Assembly: GCF_027943255.1 (NCBI RefSeq)
Contig: NC_072893.1
Coordinates: forward strand, 82,901,784 to 82,965,783
Source: Anastrepha obliqua
Lineage: Eukaryota; Arthropoda; Insecta; Diptera; Tephritidae
Reading direction: 5' to 3'
DNA length: 64,000 bases
In this document: one piece after another, positions 6,510-64,000 of the stretch
Numbering within the stretch: the stretch's first letter is position 1
How the letters are laid out: every line of letters starts with the position of its first letter
Notes under the pieces: model-generated
What the model saw: only the letters and a program-made list of their open reading frames with translations
What the model was told of the DNA's origin: nothing
Database searches by the model: none
Position numbers and translations under genes: made by a program

Positions 6510-6514
6510 TTCTT

Positions 6515-7190
6515 CTTCTTGTTTGGCGCGATAACTGCATACGCGATTTTGGTCGAGTTTAAGAAAGCGCGCCAGTCGTTTCTTTCTCGTGCTAACCGCT
6601 AAGTGAAACCAAGTCCTTCACCACCTGATCTTTTCAACGCAGAGGAGGCCTTCATCTTTATCTGCTACCACCAGCTGGTACCGCATCGTATGCTTTCAGA
6701 TCCGGAGCGTTTGTATCCATTCGGACGACATGACTCAGCCAATGTAGCCGCTGGACTTTTATTCGCTGCGGTATGTCTATGGCGTCGTAAAGTTCATACA
6801 GCTCATCCTCCCATCGTCTGCGATAATCGCCGTCGCCAACGTGCAAAATTCCAAAATGCGGAATCATTCTCTCAAACACTCCAAGTCACACTTCATCGGA
6901 TCTTGTCATCGTCCAAGCTTCTGCGCCTTACGTTAGGACGGGCATGATGAGAACCTTGTAAAGTGTTAGGTTTGTTCGTCGAGAGATGACTTTACTACGC
7001 AATTGGTTACTTAGTCCAAAGTAGCACTTGTTGCCAAGAGAGATTCTCCGTGGAATTTCAAGGTTGACATTATTATCGGAGCTAATGCTGGTTTCTATAT
7101 AAACGTAGTCTGTTACAACCTCGGAACGATAACAGTCAACAGTGACGTGCGTGTGACATAGAGGTACTTCGTGTTGTACATACCACGTAT
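6515..7190 (-). mobile_element. 3' end of endonuclease/RT-type non-LTR element
   Basis: On the minus strand the translation includes MFERMIPHFGILHVGDGDYR, then WEDELYELYDAIDI, then KVQRLHWLSHVVRMD. This is the conserved C-terminal segment following the RT domain of non-LTR elements. Further upstream (about 6,940-7,190) frame-broken sequence encodes the preceding segment that normally reads ...LSRRT..LLYKTLI.PVL. The 3' end carries a (AAG)n-like tail, seen as attcttcttcttg at about 6,510. The copy at 29,215-30,325 has the same termini on the other strand. The copy is 5'-truncated and holds no catalytic RT residues. Confidence 0.7.
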
Positions 7191-7969: not shown

Positions 7970-8952
7970 TTAATTGTTTTCGAAACATGACGTACATACA
8001 GTCTTGGAATGATCAGGACAAATGAATTTATTGCAAGCGTTACACACTTTACGGGTGCTTTTATTACGGGCCCTTCCACAATCGTAGCAACGACCGATGT
8101 AGTTATTGTGCGTTGGACCTTGATGACTTACAAATTGTGGAAGATCCAAGAAGTCTTTTATTTTAAATGTCAGTGTTCTAGGTAGCGTAGTAAGTGTTAA
8201 TCTTTGGTGAGCCAGTGGTTTCATCCAAGACAAGGCTAAGTCTATGAGAAAATCACGCCTTTTGACAGATTCATAGTTACTGTTTGCAGTGTAAATGCAT
8301 AATACGTTGAGAGCATTGAGGTTTACAAGATTATAGAACTTAGTCAGCGGCCACCTTCTCGAATTCCTAGATACGTCATAAAGAGAACACATCTTGTCAA
8401 CCAGATCAACGCCATTTTTAGTGCGATTATAGTATGTTACTATTTCCCGCTTTCGTTGATCTCCGGTGTCAGAATCAATCGCTGTATCGTTGTGCATTGT
8501 AGACATGGCTATTACTACTTTGTTGGCTTTTGGTACATAAGAAACCAGAGTATATGGAGAGTGAGTGATTTTGAGAAGCATATTGTTAGAGGCAATTCTA
8601 AATTCCCGGGGAACTTCTCTTTTATCTTTTCGAACGGTAGCAACCATTGTAATTCCATTATCAAATCATTGCTTTGCTATTTTCAGAGAGGAAAACCAAT
8701 TGTCCATAGTAATATGATATGTCTATTCAAAATTGGTTGCACCATTCTCATCACGATATCAAATCTCTCGTCGCTTAACCGAAATGGACCTTCGGGTTGT
8801 TGGCCGGCGTAAATTTCTAAGTTATAGGTGTATGGGTAATGAACATCTACAAGTGCAAAAACTTTCAGTCCATACTTAGCAGGTTTATTTGGAATATACT
8901 GCCGAAAAGAACAACGCCCTCTGAAGGACAAGAGTTGTTCGTCCAAAGTCAT
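7970..8952 (-). pseudogene. piggyBac transposase, C-terminal two-thirds
   Basis: From 8,952 downwards the frame starts MTLDEQLLSFRGRCSFRQYI and continues through KVFALVDVHYPYT, TMDNWFSSL and YNRTKNGVDLVDKMC. These are the piggyBac DDD-domain landmarks, and all four acidic positions of the family (D268, D346, D447 and D450 in the founder enzyme) have an Asp here. The C-terminus is a Cys-rich zinc-binding domain (CYDCG, CNACNKFICPDH, CTSC). One frameshift lies near 8,690, just before TMDNW, and one in-frame stop follows at about 8,660. The N-terminal region (about 250 residues in the family) is absent. The enzyme would excise and insert DNA at TTAA; this copy cannot. Confidence 0.88.
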
Positions 8953-21000: not shown

Positions 21001-21027
21001 GGTAGGTAGGTAGGTAGGTAGGTAGGG
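21001..21027. repeat. (TAGG)n tail of a LINE
   Basis: About six tandem TAGG units. Read on the minus strand they form a (CCTA)n tail at the 3' end of the adjacent RNase H-bearing LINE. A (TACC)n tail also occurs at 27,206-27,222. Confidence 0.75.
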
Positions 21028-21091
21028 TGGTTGTCATAAAGACAAACTTAGACCTTTCGCAGGTCCATTGTGATACCACTGGAGCTTATCC

Positions 21092-22137
21092 TTACCATAC
21101 GTATTCCTTTTCAAACCATCCGGTAGCTTTAATAAACGAGCAGGGCTTTGTTAGTTTTAGATGGGCTATGTCCGCTACAACGGTTAAACATGCTATATTA
21201 AGAGTGCGCAGCCTTCTCATACTCTTAGCTAGGCTTTCACACTCACATAAAAGGTGTCTGACTGTTTGCTCTTCTTCTGTATTAAGACAGCTACAGAAAT
21301 CGAAGTAAGGGAGTCCTAACCTTCTAGCGTGGCTGCCTATTAAACAATGACCAGTTAATACGCCTATCATTTTTCTTACAGCTTCTCTGTTAAATCTTAG
21401 CAAGATCTTCGATCGACCGCTGTTCCAGTTCGGCCATGTCTGTCTGCTTAGTTCGCATGTTGTGAGGTTTTGCCATCTTGTATTTACCTTTTTGATGGTG
21501 ACCCTGTCTATAAGTAATTTACAAGTGGCTATAGGCATGGGTATCAGCGCCTTATCCGGTTTGAGATCAAGCGTTGTACCGGTTCGTGCAAGTTCATCCG
21601 CCTTGCAGTTTCCTGCTATATTCCTGTGGCCTGGCACCCAGGTAAGGTGCACTTTGTAGCACTTAGATACGTCATTTGACGAGTGCGTTTTTGATTCAAG
21701 CCTTTTTATTGCCGCTGGACTGTCCGAGTAAATGAAGACTTCAGTTGTGGATAATACTCTCGTTTTTATTTCTGAAATACACTGCAATGGTCAGGTAGGC
21801 GAAATGATTGGCACACTCCGAGTTTATCGGAGTAAACCCCTCCACCTACTTTGTTGTCCAGTTTTGAGCCATTTGTGTAGATGTTTGAATAATTTTTCTT
21901 AACAATAAGCCCGTTATCCCTTTCCTCTTTGGAAAGAAATAGTGTGACAAAGGATTTATTTAAATTGATGTCCTTGGTCTTACAGAAATCCGTTGTGCCA
22001 TCAATGCAGGGGAATTTTTCTAAAATTGAAGAGTGTTCTTTTGGGTTCGTTCTGAGTAGATCGATTTCTCTTAGTCTGAGAGCTGCTTTGGTAGCTGTTT
22101 GCTTACCGAATTGCTCTATTGGTAAAAGGTTAAGCAT
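21092..22137 (-). pseudogene. LINE linker and RNase H region, copy A
   Basis: Two long overlapping frames joined by one frameshift near 21,780. The first holds LREIDLLRTNPKEHSSIL and YTNGSKLDNKVGGGVYS, where the usual first RNase H Asp (YTDGS) is Asn. The second holds FIYSDSPAAIKRLES (second Asp), WVPGHRNIAGNCKADELAR (His/Asp motif) and a terminal C-X-C...H-X4-C segment (FCSCL, VRHLLCEC) near the end. RNase H removes the RNA template during target-primed reverse transcription. The Asn substitution and frameshift make this copy inactive. Confidence 0.8.
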
Positions 22138-22175
22138 AATATTTAATGCATCTGTGGGTGTGCTACTAAGGGACC

Positions 22176-22590
22176 TCAGAGCATGTTTTTGATGAACTCA
22201 ACCAGAGATCCCGAATTCGCCTTTATTATGGTATCCGGTAGGATGTTGTTGAACGCGCCCTCGATATCAAGGAAGGCTACCAGTGTGAATTCTTTATTAT
22301 AAATTGACTTCTCGATTTCTGTAACAAGTGAGTTAAGTGCTGTTTCAGTAGATTTCCCCTTTACAGTACACATGTTGTTAGATACTAAGCTTATTAGGGC
22401 TGATGTTAGCCTTAATATGCTCTTCTATTATTCTTTCTAATGTTTCTAGCAGAAAAGAGGATAGGCTAATTGGCCTGAAATCCTTAGGTGTTGTGTGTGA
22501 ACTTTTTCCCGCTTTCGGAATTAAGACAACCTTTACTTCTTTCCATACTGATGGGACACTTTTAAGTTTCAGAGCAGCCTTGAAAATTTA
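22176..22590 (-). pseudogene. LINE reverse transcriptase N-part, copy A
   Basis: Includes (minus strand) KGKSTETALNSLVTEIEKSI and FTLVAFLDIEGAFNNILPD, the RT motif containing the first palm Asp. Upstream, the frame-broken plus-strand complement encodes remnants of VWKEVKVVLIPKAGK and DFRPISLSSFLLETLE. It ends abruptly at VEFIKNML, where the rest of the palm should follow. Confidence 0.75.
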
Positions 22591-22599
22591 GAAAAAAAA

Positions 22600-23179
22600 C
22601 CCACCTCAACCGTTTGATGTGGTATGTCAGGCGAGACGACAACACAGCACTAGGCATGTCAATCCCGGTTTAGTGGAATCTTTGTCCTTTTTAGGCCCCA
22701 AAGATACCGGGATGATTTGTTAACAACACCGAGATTTTCGGGATATGTCATTTCTTACGAAGCATACGAAATTGAGGTACAAAATAGCTTTTTTTAGAAA
22801 ACTAGCAACATTAAAATTCGCTTTGCGTTTCCAACACTTTTGTGATGGGAATTAGCTGGGCTTTTTGAGTTCAGTTCTTCAAATGAATGAAATATTACTA
22901 TTTGTATGAAATATTATTAAAATAACCGGGGAAGTTGTTCCAGATACTTAACGACAGCGTATTTTATGTGTTATACATTCTGCAAAAAAACACTAGGGAA
23001 TTATTCATTTAAAAAGCGTACATTACCTATAAATCTCAATTTTTTTTTGCTGAAATGTTGGTACAACTGTCCTTTGTAGTCTCGCAATGTTTTTGGCATT
23101 TAATTATATCAGTCAACCGCAGGTATACTCTGCGATGTTACGGTTAAAAAATCGAACAAAATTTTTTTCTTAAACTTAT
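22600..23179. other. Spacer with hAT-like terminal motif
   Basis: ctaggcatgtcaatcccggt at 22,650-22,669 resembles tagggatggcaatcccgga at 26,624-26,643 and could be a decayed hAT-type terminus. The rest is AT-rich and non-coding. Confidence 0.4.
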
Positions 23180-24080
23180 AGTTTGTTGTGTTTGCGTAGC
23201 ATGATTTTCGCTATTCTGCATGAGCAGTTTCTTTCCCACCAAGAATTTGATTCTCGAATCATTGTTGCTTCTACATCTAGTCGTTGTTTCCAGAGAGGTG
23301 GTTGTATATCGACTGTGCTAGGTACTGGAAGATTAGTGCCTGCTTTGGCTAGCATATCTATTTTCTCGTTTCCTTCGATTCCATTGTGTCCCAGTAAATG
23401 GTGGTTTGTTTCTTAGTTCCTGACTCATCCATCCTATTCCAGCATTGTCGTACGCAGTGTGAGTTTGTCATTACAGCTGCTATTCACTTTATGGCTGCTT
23501 GGCTGTCAATGTAAAATTGAGTTCAGAGGAATGTTCTTTATGGCTAAGTCTGCGGCTTTCGTTGCCGCGTAGATCTCAGCTTGGAACACACTGCACTAGT
23601 CCAGTAATTTGTATGACTGTTCATATCCTAATTTTAGAGAAAATACTACGGCTCCAACACCCTCTTCCAATTTGGAACCATCTGTCTATATGTTAAAAGT
23701 GTGGTGCGTTGAAAGTAGTCTCTAAATTAGTTTGAGGAATAACGTAATTCGAGTTAGCTTTTAAACCTCTGCATATTCGGCTGTAGCCATAAGGCCTTTC
23801 AACTAGTTGTGCAGCTGTCAAGTGCAGACTTCTTTGCAGAACCTTGTGCTACTATGTCTATTGAATGGAGGTCAAGTATTTTGTCCAGTGCTGCTGTCGG
23901 AGTGGTGCGCATTGCACCGGTTATACACAGCTCTGCAACTCTTTGTACTTTCTCCAGTTTGTTAGCGTATGTCGTCTTGTTCAAACTTGTCCACCATACT
24001 AAATATATAGAACATCATTGGTTTTACTATCGCCCTGTAAATCCAATGTATAAGTCGTGGAAATAAGCCCCATGTCTTAC
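23180..24080 (-). mobile_element. LOA/I-like non-LTR element, copy B (decayed)
   Basis: Minus-strand remnants in family order: LEKVQRVAELCITGAM with RTTPTAALDKILDL (linker, 23,984-23,799), a broken YTDGSKLEEGVGAVVFS near 23,680, and an RNase H block near 23,340-23,400 (GHNGIEGNEKIDMLAKAG). It ends near 23,180. Several stops and frameshifts. No tail or target duplication could be identified. Confidence 0.68.
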
Positions 24081-25420: not shown

Positions 25421-26739
25421 ATTGCTAATATATTATTTTAGTTGTAAAATTTGGCTTGTCTTTTTTTACATTTTTGTTTAATCTGTGCGGTATATATGTA
25501 GAACTGTTAATTATTAAAATAAATTAAAATAAAATTTTTTCGCTGCTTGTAATTCGAAAAAATTAATGACTTTGATTTGAAGTTTCACTGAAAAGAGAGA
25601 CACAGAAAATCTTTTCATTGTAAATCACTGAATAAATATAACAAATAAAAATATTACAAGTCGAAAAAATTGATTGCTCGCCTTTGTCAATGATTTCTGC
25701 TACTATTTTTTGGCGGCGGGAGGAAATTTAAAAACAAAAGTGCCAATTTTATTCGGAAACCCAACTGAGTACTTTTGTTTTCATTTGAGCGTTAACTCGT
25801 CGCTGTGAAATCGAAATTTTGTGAATCATAAATTTACTAATTTTCGTTTTCGTTGGAATGGAGAAGAATTTAAATCTCTTTTGGCCGCCGAAATGTTCGC
25901 CCTCGAATTTCTTTATGGCTTTTTCGAACAAAGTAACTTGAATAAATGAAATGTAAGTAAATCATCTGCGATGAAATATTTTCAATTTTCTCACACGTGT
26001 GAATTGTAAAAAGTTATGTTTTTTCTGTATTTTGTGAAACACCCAAAAGAAAGTTAAAACGGAATGAAATGTATGGAAATAGTACCAAAATAAATAGAAC
26101 TCCGTGGTGAAAAAGTTTGTGATTTTCGGGATCCAACGGGAGTTATGGGGGTTAATATTTGCTCAATGAAGAAGTTTCGTCTGCGATGGAGAGCAAATGG
26201 CTACGCTAGTCTACAAACAATTGCAAGTCGTTACACTTTTCCTTTTACGAGCTATAGAAATTTGTTTGTAAGGAAATTTTGGAAATGATAGAAATTTGCT
26301 CGAAACAATTTGCCCATTAATGAATGTTTAATTAAGAGTTTTCTAAAAACTATAACTAGCTGTATATGATACAAATATAATTTTTTTTTTTAAATGTTAT
26401 TTTTTAAATACGTCTTGCTCGATTCTGAACGAATTGTCCACCAACAGAGTTGCAGCTTTTCCAAATTATTTATAATATTATTAAATATCTTACAAAGAAG
26501 TTAGTTTTTGACCACGCACGCAATTCACCGCCGTTACAAAGGGAACGCTGCTGGCAAGTCTATAAATCCGATATCAAGAAAAACTTCATGCGTCAATTAC
26601 AACGTCAAATTATGTGCATACGTATTAGGGATGGCAATCCCGGAAGACCGAAATTTTTAGGACTGAAATAAATTTTAATTTTTTTACGAACTGTCTAGGG
26701 GCTGTAATCCAAGAATCCTGAGATGGATGTACATCATGA
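25421..26739. other. Non-coding AT-rich region
   Basis: No gene recognised. The 73-codon frame at 26,450-26,671 overlaps the hAT-like terminal motif at 26,624 and has no domain. Confidence 0.5.
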
Positions 26740-26796
26740 TAATAAGATCAATGATGACATACGGAGCGGTCGCTTAGGCATCTCGAGAATCACCCT

Positions 26797-26926
26797 CACG
26801 ACAGTGCGGGCAGCGCTGAGAACGCGTGTGTATCACAGAAGCGATGCAGACCTGTCCTAAAGCTGCGATGGAGGTGATGCTCGAGCAGACACCTCTCCAT
26901 ATAGTGATTCAGCAATCAGTCAAGCG
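26797..26926 (+). repeat. 130-bp inverted duplication, left arm
   Basis: Reverse complement matches 26,996-27,125 with only four visible mismatches in 130 bases (about 97 percent). The central spacer is 26,927-26,995. The arm lies within the LINE linker coding sequence. Confidence 0.9.
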
Positions 26927-26995
26927 AAACCTGCTGAATATTATCAGGAAAGATTTCCACTCAACCATCTACCCAGAGATGATATCACTAAGGTA

Positions 26996-27125
26996 CGCTT
27001 GACTGATTGCTGAATCACTATATGGAGAGGTGTCAGCTCGAGCATCACCTCCATCGCAGCTTTAGGACAGGTCCGCATGGCTCCTGTGATACACACGCGT
27101 TCTCAGCGCTGCCCGCACTGTCGTG
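26996..27125 (-). repeat. 130-bp inverted duplication, right arm
   Basis: Inverted copy of 26,797-26,926. Confidence 0.9.
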
Positions 27126-27229
27126 CACAGGTAGTGGTCCACATTATGGTATCAAAACGGCACGTAAGTGCTACTTGAAGTGTCCCTGGGGTATTCTTGC
27201 CATCTTACCTACCTACCTACCTCAGAATT

Positions 27230-27540
27230 AAACAGAACAATAAGCTGAACTAGAGTAGACCTGCATTTGAAAAGAGACTCCAGGAGTGTACCCTGCTCTG
27301 GCATAGATGGCTCGAAGACCTCAGAAGGCATAGGCGCTGGAATTTACGGCTCCAGAACCAAATGGTTTGTGCCGATAGCCAGTTTTCCAAGCATCTTTCA
27401 AGCGGAGATGTATGTTCGGAATGAGCGAATTGCCATTCTGAGTAACAGTCAGGCGGCACTCATGGCCATATCGGTCTGTGTATTGATGCAATTTTGGGAT
27501 AAATTGTTGCTGCATAATGAATATATCAATCTTAAAACTA
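27230..27540 (+). pseudogene. LINE RNase H fragment, copy C2
   Basis: Plus-strand frame reads CSGIDGSKTSEGIGAGIYGS and later QAEMYVRNERIAILSNSQAA. This corresponds to ..TDGSK...G.G.G...S....FQAE......I.I.SDSQAA.., the first half of the LINE RNase H domain. The first Asp is preserved (IDGSK); the second site is SNSQAA, so its usual Asp is Asn. No His motif follows. It probably belongs to a second element next to copy C. Confidence 0.65.
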
Positions 27541-29199
27541 GGCGCGATATATCGGGATTGTTATGACAAGATCCCGAAATATCCCGGTATCGTAAAATTT
27601 GATAAAGTCAACATCCCAATACGTACACTGTATGTATACGAGTATGTATGTATATGCATGTCTAAATGTATAAACCGGCAATCACACCTGAATTCCTTTC
27701 ATCTTCGATGGATGAAATGTATCCAACTTCACATTCCAAAAAAGTTTTGATTTTTAATGAGTTCATTATTTCGGAAACGGCAACAAAAAATCATTTTAAG
27801 CAAACATTATAAACTTTCTGAAAACATGTCGCTACACGTCGCAACAATGCAGAGCGATTTGTCATTCGCACTTTTTTTGGCTTTCAAATTATCCTCAACT
27901 CCAATATGAGTTGCAACAATGTGTGAGATTTTTTTTGCCGCTTTTTGGCACATTTCTCGACATCTGTATAGTTATTGGTATATGAATGCAGTGGATACAC
28001 CGCAAGAATACAACAATGTCACGTTGCACGCGTGTATTCAACAGTGGCAGCTGCAGAGGTAGCCGTGGAAGTTTTTGAAAACTGCAGTGGCTGCTATAGA
28101 CTGCCAACAAAGGCTATAGATGGTTCGGTTGTTGCCCAGCCACTGATGATTACATTGTCCGTTTGTTTGCGTATCACGTCGCAAATGTCATTATTAATAA
28201 TGAATTTTTGGTGGCAGCGGCGCGAAAAAGGTTTGGCAGCAAAGGAAAATGTGAAGTCACTGATAAACCGCGATTCTTTTTACACCCCTCTTCCTGCCAT
28301 TTTTGGTGAGTTCAGCGCTTTTTTCGCATGGTTTTCAACTTAATAGCAGTTTGATTGATTTATTGAAATTACAGGCGCACAAGAAAAGAGCAACAGCAAT
28401 TAATATACGAGTACCAGCGGCTGATTTCCAACAATAATGATTTACACCTGCCTGCCTGCCACTTCATCACCAAAGGCGGGTTTGTGGCGTACTTTGAGTA
28501 AAAGTAATGCTATTTCCACGTGTGAAAATCTTTTACCACCTTTGTTAGCTTTCCTGGCTTTTCACTTCCGAATGGATACCACCAAGGCACCATCGCACCG
28601 CTTTCAAAAGAAAAGCCACAACAAGTGCTTTTCAATTACACTTTAATTAATTTTAATGATATTATTTTCCATACATATCCCTTTCCGACAGTGACGATGG
28701 CGCTTTTTGTGTGAGGTATATGCTTTTGAGTGTATGGGAAGCATTTGTGGGAAGATATGTACTATAACCCAGCAAACTATTGGATAAAACCTGATGTGCA
28801 GGAGTTGTCTCTTTACTAGACCACAAGCCGCACCAAAATGTTTCCTCTTCCTTAAAAAGAATGAAAACCTTGTCTCTTAATCCGCAAATGAAAAATTGTA
28901 TGAAGTGCTTAAAAAAATTAAATTCAGATATATATGTACAATGTGATGATGAAAGTTGTAATAAAATAAAAAATAATATATCTCATATTGAAATTTAAAT
29001 ACTCAATTGAGAACTCGTTGTTAACGAATTGTAAAACTTTCAGTCACCAAGAATATTAGTGATGTTCAATAACAAAAATCTTCTGCACTCAACCTCGGTT
29101 TTCGGTTCTCTGGCCATTGCCTGCTTTTCAAACTTAGTTCACAATATCACAAAAAACTACACCATTAATTATACCGCTGCCGAAGGAGAAATCTTATTC
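27541..29199. other. Non-coding region
   Basis: Includes atcccgaaatatcccggtat at 27,570, a palindromic G/C-rich snippet like those of hAT termini, and unique AT-rich DNA. The longest frame (27,975-28,343, 122 codons) shows no domain. No TE boundaries seen between 27,700 and 29,200. Confidence 0.5.
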
Positions 29200-30325
29200 C
29201 GACGAACGCGAAAAAATAGTTGATACGACGAGGAGTGTCATGCCGCCACAGAAAGAAAGGATGCTGCCTACAGAGCCACGCTGCGATCGGGAGCAACGCG
29301 AGCCATGCGGAATCGCTATCGGGAGCTAAGAAAGGAACAGAGACGTATTATCAGAAAGAAAAAAACGAGGGGCCAAAATACGGGAGTGCGAGGAGTTTGA
29401 GATGCTGACCCATGGGAACAACGCCCGAAAATTCTACCAGAAACTTCGGCGGCTTGCAGAAGGTTTTAAGACCGGGGCGCTTGCCTGTAAGTACATAGAT
29501 GGTTATCTGATGACTGACATCCAGAGCATACTTAAATTATGAAGAAACCCTGCTCGAACCTGTTAAACAGTGATAGCTGCGCGTGTCACAGAGAATGTGA
29601 AAATTTCGATACCCTAATCGTTGACAACGGAACTTTCGTTCCGTGACGATAATGCGACTAAAGAATAACAAAGCCGCGGGCTGAGGTATTCAAATATGGC
29701 GGCGAGGAACTGGTCATCTATGATTTCGAGGTTGTAAAATACTTTGTTTATTAGGGAGCCAGCATGAACAATGTCAACCTGGAAGTCCAACGTAGAATCT
29801 TTCTTACCAACAAGTGCTTTTTTGTACTAAGTAAGCAATTGAGTAGTAAAGTCTTCTCTCGACGAACAAAACTAATACTCTACAAGGCTCTCATCAAGGC
29901 CGTCCTAACGTTTGACGCAGAAGCGTAGATGATGACAATACCCGCTGAGGCGTCACTTGGAATGTTTGAGAGAAAGATTCTGCGTAATATATGGACCTTT
30001 GTACGTTGGCGACGGCGAATATCGCAGACGATGAAACGATGAGCTGTATGAGCTTTACGACGACATAGACATACAGCAGATCATGTCGTCCAAATAGATA
30101 CAAATGCTTCGGCTCTGAAAGTATTCGATACGGTAGCAGCTGGTGGTGGCAGAGGAAGAGAAAGACCACCTCTGCGTTGGAAAGATCAGGTGGAGAAGGA
30201 CTTGGCTTCACTTGGTGTGTCCAACTGGCGCCGGTTAGCACGAGAAAGAAACGACTGGCGCTCTTTGTTAAATTCGGTCAAAATTGCGCAACCGGTTATC
30301 GCGCCAATTAAGAAGAAGAAGAAAC
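29200..30325 (+). mobile_element. Endonuclease/RT-type LINE, internally deleted
   Basis: Plus-strand remnants in order: YDEECHAATERKDAAYRATL and RYRELRKEQRRIIRKKKTRG (the basic linker before RT), NARKFYQKLRRLAEGFKTGA, a gap where the RT should be, LGMFERKILRNIW, and QVEKDLASLGVSNWRRLAR with the 3' end IAQPVIAPIKKKKK. The DNA ends in an (AAG)n-like tail near 30,320. The copies at 6,515-7,190 and 53,435-53,960 share this 3' end on the opposite strand. The RT catalytic region is deleted. Confidence 0.72.
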
Positions 30326-32239: not shown

Positions 32240-33355
32240 GCAGATGGGTAAGTAGGTTAGATGGCAAGAGTACACCAGGTATCATAATGTGGACAGCAAA
32301 AAATTTATAGAAGAGAAAACCATCTACAGCCATCCAGTGCTGTTGATGTAGTGGAGGAGAGAAAAGGGATCTAGGCTGGACAATTTTTTCAAGCCATCCC
32401 CAAAGGGCACGCTAAGAAATTTCAAGCGCCTAGCCGCCAGATCCGGACATTTGCAGAGAAAGTGTTCAACAGTCTCTTTCTCTGCAGGATCCCCACAGCT
32501 TCTACAATAGGGGTTGTACGAAATTCGAAGCTTCTCCGCATAAGTACCGATCACTCAATATGTGATCACTCGCAATGAGTTTGGAAATTGTATGGCGAGG
32601 GATTCCCATCACCATAAGCGTTCTGTTTATATCGTATTGAGGCCATAGTGTTTTCGAAACAGCACACGATGAGACAGCCCTCCATCTGTCCTGCGCTTTT
32701 TTTTGTTTTTTCTTAATTGGGTAGTTTCCCTTTAACAATGGTCAAGGGGACAATGATGTCTGAGAAGAGGACAACGGAAGCCGGTTCTGTCGACCCCTTC
32801 CTGGCCAGCTCATCGGCAATTTCATTTCCCTCTATATTCATGTGCCCAGGAACCCAGAAAAGGGAAATGTTTCTTGCACATTTGAGACGTTATAGTTCCT
32901 CCTTACAGGAGTTCACAAGAAGAGAGCTGCAATACGGCCACGACAGTGCCTTGATCGCAGCTTGACTATCGGAAAAAATATTAATGTCTTCCTCCCAACA
33001 TCGATCCCTAAGCATTTTGCATGCTTGCTGGATCGCGAGCACCTCTGCTTGAAGAACGCTGCTCGTTTCCGGCAGTTTAAAGGAGACCGACATGATGGCT
33101 GATTTAGGAAAACCCCCGCTCGCACTCCAGATTCCATCTCGGATTCGTCAGTGAAAACAGAGGTACCTACGTCCGTACCGACTCTCCCCGCTTTCCAATC
33201 TTGCCTGCTCGGAAAGATAGCCCTAGCACAACCCTCAAAACCCGAAGTACAGAGAAGGAAGGGGACATCTGCTTCAAGATGCTACTATGTCCTATGAGTT
33301 GCCTCCAGAGGCCAATCTCCTTCAACCTAACAGCGCTCTGAGCAGCAATGGATTT
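32240..33355 (-). mobile_element. LOA/I-like non-LTR element, copy D
   Basis: On the minus strand: a linker (AVRLKEIGLWRQLIGHSSIL), an RNase H block with VFTDESEMESGVRAGVF, then INIFSDSQAAIKALSW, then WVPGHMNIEGNEIADELAR. The C-terminal Cys/His segment is YCRSCGDPAEKETVEHFLCK. At least four frame breaks. The 3' untranslated region (32,330-32,240) ends TTGCCATCTAACCTAC and matches the 3' end at 27,130-27,222. Confidence 0.75.
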
Positions 33356-33359
33356 AACT

Positions 33360-33600
33360 TGCAGATCAGTTTGTAGTTCTCTTGTTTGAATTGTATGTGA
33401 TCAGCGCTTTTGGCAATCTCATCTACAATTTCGTTTCCTGCAATGCCCTTATGCCCGGGTACCCAATAGATGTGTAACCCTCTGTCTCCGGCTAGTCTCT
33501 CTATGGCTTCCATGGTTCTAAGAACGTTTCTAGATAAAATTCCATATGAATTTATTGCCTTCATTGCCACTTGACTGTGCAAGATTTTAGCAAAAAATGA
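33360..33600 (-). pseudogene. LINE RNase H fragment joined to copy D
   Basis: The minus-strand frame (86 codons) contains HSQVAMKAINSYGILSRNVL and LHIYWVPGHKGIAGNEIVDE, the second half of an RNase H domain. It ends at an abrupt junction near 33,355, where the linker of copy D begins. RNase H should follow, not precede, that linker, so two copies have been fused. Confidence 0.65.
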
Positions 33601-47480: not shown

Positions 47481-47624
47481 ATTAGGCCGGATCGATTTGT
47501 GGGGAGGCAAAAAAAATCGCCCATTGCTCTGTGAAAATCATATTCTAGGGATCAAAATAAGAAACTTTGCCGAAGGAACCATACCTCTAAAACGAATTCT
47601 GTGGTCCACCAATTTGGGTCGAAC
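47481..47624. repeat. Fold-back element, left arm
   Basis: About 130 bases align with the reverse complement of 47,816-47,946 at roughly 90 percent by eye, with a small insertion near the outer end. Confidence 0.8.
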
Positions 47625-47815
47625 TTTTTAGTTTCTTTTCTAATGTAAAGGCCAAAAATGGTGATATTTTGAAATGATTGTATGGGGAACCCCTCAGGGG
47701 AGTCCCAGGGGGTGTGCGACTTGCATGGGTGGATCGGCCGTCCAAAGTTAGTGGGGGTCGGTCCTACATTTGGACTCGATTGGAGCACTCTAAATGGGTC
47801 AAAGTGGGATTTTTC

Positions 47816-47946
47816 GTTCGACCCAAATTGGGGGACATCAGAAATCGTTTTAGAGGTATTGTTCCTTCGGCAAAGTTTCTTATTTTGATCCCTAGAATAC
47901 GATTTTTACAGAGCAATGAGCGATTTTCAAATCGACCCGCCCTAAT
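47816..47946. repeat. Fold-back element, right arm
   Basis: Inverted partner of 47,481-47,624. Confidence 0.8.
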
Positions 47947-62977: not shown

Positions 62978-64000
62978 TTGGGAGGTTGAATTAGTTTTAA
63001 AGGTTTTTTCGAAGATTTGGGGCTTTATTGTGAAAAAACGGTACAAAGTATTTTATTCGAAGTATTGGCCATCGCTAGCTACAACTTTCGCCCATCTTTC
63101 GGGCAATTTCCGGATGCCGTTTCTCCAAAATTCTGGCCGCTGCTTGGCTATCCATGACTCAACCCATATTTTGGTAGCCTCGTACGAGGAGAACCGCTGG
63201 TCCGCCAAATCGAGACTCATATGCCGGAACAAATGATAATCGGAGGGAGCTATGTCTGGACTATACGGCGGGTGGGGTAACACTTCCCAGCCAAGCGTTC
63301 CAAGGTATTTTTTGACAGGTTGAGCAACATGCGGCCGAGCGTTGTCATGTTGCAAAATAACCTTGTCGTGCCTTTTTACCGTTTCCGGCCGTTTTTCTTT
63401 CAATGCCCGGCTTAAACGCATTAATTGCAGTCGGTAACGATCCCCCGTGATTGTTTCGCCCGGTTGGAGCAGCTCAAAATATACGACGCCGACCTGATCA
63501 CACCAAATGCAGAGCATGATTTTCTTGCCGTGAATATTCTGCTTGGCCGTCGACGTTGATGCGTGGCCGGGCAAACCCCATGATTTTTTGCGTTTTGGGT
63601 TATCGTAGTGGATCCATTTTTCGTCGCCAGTCACCACCCGATGCAAAAAACCCTTCCGATTTTGTCGCTCGATCAGCAATTCGCACGGGACCCAATGTCC
63701 TTGCTTTTGGATCATTCCCATCGCTTTTAGACGCTTGCAAACGGTTGATTTATCAACGCCCAATGATTCAGCAAGCTCTTCTTGGGTTTGGCACGAGTCC
63801 TCGTTTACCAATTCCCCCAATTCCGCGTCCTCGAACTTTTTGGGCTGGCCAAGACGCTCCTTGTCTTCGGTGTGAAAATCACCACTTTTGAATCGTCGAA
63901 ACCAGTACTCACATGTTGAAATCGACGGAGTATGGTCTGGGTAGGCCTCCTGCAGTAATTCACGGGCTTGGGCTGTATTTTTTTCAAATTGAAGCAGAAA
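62978..64000 (-). mobile_element. Mariner with intact reading frame, cut by window edge
   Basis: The right (3') end of the element appears to start at 62,978 after a TA with the likely terminal sequence ttgggaggttgaattagttt. The 5' part of the element lies beyond 64,000, so its partner terminal repeat cannot be seen. Confidence 0.8.
63053..64000 (-). CDS. Mariner transposase, uninterrupted in window (partial)
   Basis: The only transposase here with an unbroken frame. It is open from the window edge (64,000) to a stop at 63,053-63,055, at least 315 codons, against about 345 in the family; the missing N-terminal residues and start lie outside. It has a first helix-turn-helix (EYWFRRFKSGDFHTEDKERL), a second one (SCQTQEELAESLGVDKSTVC), then VTGDEKWIHYDN, VILQHDNARPH and PYSPDIAPSDYHLF. 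These are the three catalytic Asp, with 34 residues between the last two (D,D34D). WVPCEL precedes the catalytic core and it ends WAKVVASDGQYFE. The enzyme would cut and paste its element at TA sites. Intactness suggests recent or current activity. Confidence 0.92.
   Translation of the reverse strand, partial: FLLQFEKNTAQARELLQEAYPDHTPSISTCEYWFRRFKSGDFHTEDKERLGQPKKFEDAELGELVNEDSCQTQEELAESLGVDKSTVCKRLKAMGMIQKQGHWVPCELLIERQNRKGFLHRVVTGDEKWIHYDNPKRKKSWGLPGHASTSTAKQNIHGKKIMLCIWCDQVGVVYFELLQPGETITGDRYRLQLMRLSRALKEKRPETVKRHDKVILQHDNARPHVAQPVKKYLGTLGWEVLPHPPYSPDIAPSDYHLFRHMSLDLADQRFSSYEATKIWVESWIAKQRPEFWRNGIRKLPERWAKVVASDGQYFE

Follow-up and report, generated by a model that had tools for sequence, protein, structure and literature searches.

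A near-perfect inverted repeat of LINE sequence in Anastrepha obliqua: probable relic of a 5′-inverted insertion nested in an older LINE

Introduction

How does a decayed LINE come to carry, 69 bases from a piece of its own coding sequence, a near-perfect copy of that piece in the opposite orientation? The question is raised by a locus in a 64,000-nucleotide stretch of Anastrepha obliqua contig NC_072893.1 (positions 82,901,784 to 82,965,783), here called the window; all coordinates below are positions within it. For 5′-inverted LINE insertions the mechanism of twin priming was reportedly put forward by Ostertag and Kazazian in 2001. The answer that we favour, and consider probable, is that an old LOA/TRIM-type LINE fragment was interrupted by a 5′-inverted LOA-type LINE insertion.

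Results

The two arms of the repeat, 26,797–26,926 on the plus strand and 26,996–27,125 on the minus strand, are reverse complements of one another at 126/130 positions, with four substitutions, no gaps and a 69-base spacer between them. Under a looser repeat-search scoring they grow to 141 bases at 94% identity, with 47 bases between. The computed RNA fold of arm, spacer and arm reaches −280.2 kcal/mol, compared with a mean of −98.45 for dinucleotide shuffles (sd 5.4, n = 100; z −33.7). A chance origin of the inverted repeat is excluded, since 0/100 shuffles fold as stably. The 130-bp near-perfect inverted duplication described in a sequence-only reading of this DNA is borne out, and the long hairpin predicted there would, by this computation, be very stable. 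The outer flanks of the two arms show no mutual resemblance (best local score 14).

A scan of the 64-kb window returned 15 inverted pairs that are 40 bases long or longer, five of which have arms less than 1 kb apart; among these five, no other pair has arms as long or as alike as the locus at 26,797–27,125 (141 nt, 94%), and 47,513–47,927 is the runner-up (112 nt, 93%). The arms of that second repeat are 93% complementary and lie 191 bases apart. Its ends, GGCCGGATCGATTT.. and ..AAATCGACCCGCC, point to a DNA element of foldback or MITE type, and none of the LINE proteins tried matched it. Over a longer distance, about 23 kb, 6510–7074 and 29767–30320 share four collinear inverted matches (83–89% alike), and we read them as oppositely oriented, diverged copies of a single repeat. 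Two ORFs on the minus strand, 7970–8647 and 63053–63820, match DDE_Tnp_1_7 and Transposase_1 in Pfam; we take these to be piggyBac-like and mariner-like transposases.

Read from left to right on the plus strand, the locus runs from RT end to linker, spacer, antisense linker, LINE 3′ end, tail and RNase H, as follows.

26,700–26,796, plus strand: C-terminal RT end of the host LOA/TRIM-type LINE, the native outer flank of the left arm (tblastn with P0012, E 2.7e-8)
26,797–26,926, plus strand: left arm, RT–RNase H linker in sense, in native LINE context (profile, tblastn, arm alignment)
26,927–26,995, no strand assigned: 69-base spacer, presumably LINE sequence from just downstream of the arm (orientation scores)
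26,996–27,125, minus strand: right arm, antisense, from the linker stretch seen in the left arm (profile, tblastn, arm alignment)
27,126–27,205, plus strand: 3′-end segment of an LOA-type LINE (3′ UTR-like), sense (match to 32,345–32,257, minus strand)
27,206–27,222, plus strand: (TACC)4 tail, where we take the nested insert to have its 3′ end (TACC run)
27,223–27,305, plus strand: decayed stretch, presumed to continue the host LINE from linker to RNase H (empty-site translation, by eye only)
27,306–27,473, plus strand: host LINE RNase H domain, internally deleted (profile, i-E 3.2e-6; tblastn with P0012, E 6.5e-4)

The LINE assignments rest on a profile of 49 proteins, for which a different LINE copy in the window had served as query; the profile was run on the six frames of 25,800–28,400. 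These proteins include one from Anastrepha ludens and one named Drosophila miranda transposon TRIM, an element that we take to belong to the LOA clade. The profile matched the left arm on the plus strand (i-E 2.1e-5), the right arm on the minus strand (i-E 2.2e-7) and, on the plus strand again, the RNase H domain at 27,306–27,473. For tblastn at 26,000–27,700, 8 of 50 proteins were used. P0012 matched 26,700–26,942 in a single alignment with two short gaps and two stops, and separately matched the RNase H piece. P0023 (2.3e-6) and P0013 (7.3e-4) agree with the P0012 alignment, the match to P0025 is weak (0.020), P0049 weakly matched the RT end (0.011), and P0028 and P0050 matched nowhere at the locus.

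One P0012 alignment spans both the left arm and its outer flank, which places this arm in its native LINE context. On the minus strand, the right arm gives the sole significant LINE coding match in the stretches searched. In the linker frame the left arm translates as CITEAMQTCPKAAMEVMLEQTPLHI and the right arm as CITGAMRTCPKAAMEVMLELTPLHI. The family-specific linker motifs are present, as is the order RT end, linker, RNase H, as for an LOA/TRIM-type LINE. The stretch 27,223–27,305 has no match to the LINE profile; in a translation of the empty site it reads plausibly, by eye only, as the piece preceding the RNase H. We infer that the RT end and the RNase H on the plus strand belong to one host LINE copy, split by an insertion. 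Earlier claims that the arm is LINE linker coding sequence, that one half is an antisense duplicate and that the element is decayed are correct. The setting given for the repeat, inside a LINE fragment, was right as to the linker and the antisense arm but missed the LINE 3′ end, the (TACC)n tail and the RNase H beyond.

Immediately outside the right arm, 27,126–27,203 (78 bases) matches the 3′ end of a LINE copy at 32,345–32,257 on the minus strand with a score of 43, against 20 for the reverse complement. This score was reached by 0/5000 shuffles and by none of the random pieces of the window (at most 5000 draws, with overlaps with the tested places removed). The match is made of two collinear blocks, GTCCACATTATG.. 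and CCTGGGGTATTCTTGCCAT, the first of which begins 11 bases in; at a stricter gap cost the second block alone was scored, and 2/2000 shuffles and 14/2000 random pieces were as good. Against the 3′ ends of two further LINEs in the window, the segment scored at chance level (587/5000 and 1203/5000 shuffles as good), and for one of these the reverse complement of the segment ties at 23. The segment is matched to one other LOA-type copy, not to the arms' own family. It ends at 27,222 in the (TACC)4 run, and RNase H sequence on the plus strand starts 83 bases later. A longer TACC run also terminates a LINE copy near 21,001–21,024 on the minus strand.

The matched LINE, at 32.3–33.4 kb, is LOA-type by the 49-protein profile. 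It is a decayed copy with a 3′ end (32247–33376, minus strand), in which the profile matches run from 33,376 to 32,327, where the last coding match ends; the best of them is to RNase H (i-E 1.7e-44). A separate LOA-type RNase H piece at 33370–33576 on the minus strand (i-E 5e-15) abuts the start of this copy at 33,376, forming a second LINE-to-LINE junction in which both pieces have the same orientation. At 21001–23930 on the minus strand, a linker match (23,930–23,772) is followed by an RNase H ORF (21,787–21,092) just under the Pfam cut-off and then by a TACC run; these may be parts of one LINE copy separated by other sequence.

Relatives of the locus were scarce in the collections searched. 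Arm patterns picked out 52 + 3 stretches in viral contigs and 384 in genome contigs, none of which was confirmed by tblastn, and a longer arm query gave one candidate and no confirmed relative. One short protein did resemble the arm, a 78-aa sequence from a beetle (E 1.4e-4). These collections yielded no full copy of the arms' family, the 3′-end DNA pattern had no match in viral contigs, and the 531-base locus had none in plasmids or phages.

Discussion

The antisense arm adjoins a LINE 3′ end and its tail, and RNase H sequence follows; the duplicate therefore most likely came with a nested LINE insertion. We infer that a single integration event brought in both the antisense arm and the 3′ end. 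The host would be a decayed LOA/TRIM-type LINE fragment on the plus strand, at about 26,700–27,473, and the insertion point would lie between its linker and its RNase H. The insert would comprise the antisense linker piece, the sense 3′ end and the (TACC)n tail (26,996–27,222), or would cover 26,927–27,222 if the spacer belongs to it, and its two-segment shape is the one that twin priming produces. On this scheme an inverted repeat was formed because the inverted piece equals the stretch that the host LINE carries just upstream. Two other arrangements were considered and set aside. To take 26,700–27,222 as one twin-primed LINE copy is inconsistent with the arms, whose inner ends are the downstream ends of the linker, and a single insertion with deletion of the RNase H was dropped once RNase H sequence had been found downstream of the tail.

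Of the human- and chimp-specific L1 insertions, 639/2068 are 5′-inverted, against about 10% of human L1 copies at large, a figure cited in the same source, and twin priming is named as the most likely cause (PMC2912911, extracts). As in a 5′-inverted insertion, an antisense segment (here the right arm, on the minus strand) adjoins a sense segment that extends to the 3′ end and tail. Comparison of the tail region with either possible left end gave no target-site duplication, the longest shared word being 6 bases and off the junctions. One such insertion into an older relative would be the most economical history, but the missing duplication and a stop codon common to both arms fit it imperfectly. 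Because no duplication was found, though such duplications can be short or decayed, we grade the locus as shaped like a twin-priming product rather than as a proven one. About 70% of 5′-inverted L1 insertions have 2–5 bp of microhomology (PMC2912911, extracts); at the present locus we saw by eye only a gapped AGGT match beside the inner junction.

The nested insertion leaves room for a second source of the antisense arm, which could have been copied from the flanking host LINE rather than from the RNA of a relative, a reverse transcriptase or repair polymerase having switched templates. After the 3′ end, the polymerase would have moved to the target strand alongside and copied 130 of its bases backwards. 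We regard this as rather unlikely, and its odds overlap those of the nested 5′-inverted insertion, since it is a version of the latter with a local template. The more specific proposal, that the polymerase of an LOA-type LINE finished a short 3′ end and then copied 130 host bases backwards before 5′ closure, seems to us a little less likely again.

The case for a local template begins with an in-frame TGA common to both arms, which is unexpected for a copy made from an intact, active master. Moreover, the inverted piece is the very stretch beside the insertion point, only 69 bases from the junction, a coincidence if its source was an independent RNA. The shared TGA suggests that the arm was copied from its own locus, that the arms later exchanged sequence or that the family master carried the stop, and it would favour a local source or arm-to-arm conversion. 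Set against the local template is the fact that the same TGA is also expected from arm-to-arm gene conversion or from a defective family master. The high identity of the arms may likewise reflect either a fairly recent event or conversion between them. Three of the four arm differences change an amino acid, and at all three the residue in the right arm is the one most frequent among the relatives. Of the 49 aligned proteins, those with a letter at the position show G in 12/13, R in 12/14 and L in 9/14 (Q in 0); P0028 and P0050 have an identical linker and so are not independent in these counts. Such differences fit the neutral decay of one sequence after copying and, as far as only four changes can tell, look like neutral decay after the split rather than the divergence of functional lineages. 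That the three polarised changes all fall in the left arm says little, because equal decay would give so one-sided a result 1 time in 4 (two-sided). Extracts of a study of Drosophila R2 record an earlier proposal in which the R2 polymerase jumps to target DNA upstream; the authors of the study prefer another model (PMC2718515). We met no precedent of like size in the extracts of the literature cited here. If a local template was used, target-templated 5′ inversions would be a route to hairpin loci when LINEs land in their own relatives, and the resulting hairpins would be ready for siRNA production.

The orientation of the spacer bears on what was inserted: a sense spacer gives a clean insert of 26,996–27,222, an antisense spacer a larger inverted piece or a flip. 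The translation of the antisense spacer has a tryptophan near the expected place, while that of the sense spacer has an HSTI motif which, by eye, resembles the GHSxIL of relatives. The argument that the tryptophan makes the spacer necessarily antisense was not upheld by shuffle and random-piece controls. In a first scoring, 111/2000 shuffles and 279/2000 random pieces were as good as the antisense reading. Against a 16-row linker profile, the same reading was equalled by 52/1000 shuffles and 71/1000 random pieces without the right flank, and by 30–94/1000 shuffles and 34–129/1000 random pieces with the flank in three registers; the sense reading was chance-like (522–689/1000 shuffles as good). 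Eighteen further comparisons gave a lowest p of 0.07, in a sense frame other than that of the linker, and in six more none was rarer than 823/2000; these two sets supported neither orientation. Two of the four tests thus lean weakly towards an antisense spacer.

An antisense spacer would suit a DNA-level event that followed a short, 5′-truncated LINE insertion, either template switching at a replication fork or a staggered-break micro-inversion with fill-in, because it would give the order of an inversion with a duplicated edge. Template switching does yield reverse-complement copies and hairpins in one step (PMC8794818, extracts), and the 16-row test leaned the right way, with and without the right flank. 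However, that lean is weak, given the counts of the first scoring and two other tests that are unsupportive; the largest switch-like pattern named in the same extracts is 59 bp (PMC8794818); and the break would have to fall near the 5′ edge of the LINE 3′ end, whose first matched block begins 11 bases in. We consider a DNA-level event improbable.

Might the repeat be a hairpin-RNA locus, a source of siRNAs against LOA-type LINEs that has been kept for that reason? A long, near-perfect inverted repeat is a trait of hpRNA siRNA loci and is present here, in a 130-bp stem of the computed stability given above. There is also a precedent in hp-ODox2 of Drosophila simulans, in which inverted arms of the BS2/Jockey LINE give rise to Dcr-2-dependent siRNAs (PMC10317233, extracts). 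Against it, no Rfam family was matched in the window at gathering scores, a result that says little on siRNA hairpins. Retention for such a role appears very improbable to us. By default the locus is a relic with hairpin potential, and the hairpin would have no dedicated function. Finally, a short-spaced inverted duplicate such as this one is a form that artefacts are known to take, but an assembly or library fold-back is hardly credible here: the right arm runs not into a mirror of the left flank but into a distinct, meaningful sequence, the LINE 3′ end and tail, and the arms differ at four positions, three of them second codon positions.

On the nested-insertion reading the locus is an ordinary kind of genome scar. 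Nested 5′-inverted LINEs would offer a simple one-step route to a long hairpin of transposon sequence, of which this is one worked example. It would gain weight if the genome held many such loci, if the target flank proved to be the template of the arm or if small RNAs arose from the arms.

Among known systems, Foldback and MITE DNA elements have arms that form the element's ends, occur in multiple copies and bear a short target duplication; at the present locus the arms are interior LINE coding sequence with differing outer flanks. Template-switch mutations resemble the locus in making a hairpin from a reverse-complement copy in one step, but reach at most 59 bp in the extracts concerned (PMC8794818), whereas the copy here is 130 bases long and tied to a LINE 3′ end. 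With hp-ODox2 it shares inverted arms of LINE sequence beside other repeat fragments; hp-ODox2 is an siRNA producer according to the extracts (PMC10317233), whereas our locus is known from its sequence alone. It differs from the twin-primed L1 insertions described in extracts of PMC2912911 in that the element is LOA-type and from an insect, in that a target-site duplication was not found and in that the inverted piece is homologous to a host LINE right beside the insert. In its overall form, however, with an antisense 5′ segment, a sense 3′ segment and a 3′ tail, and with the internal part missing, it is like a twin-primed 5′-inverted LINE.
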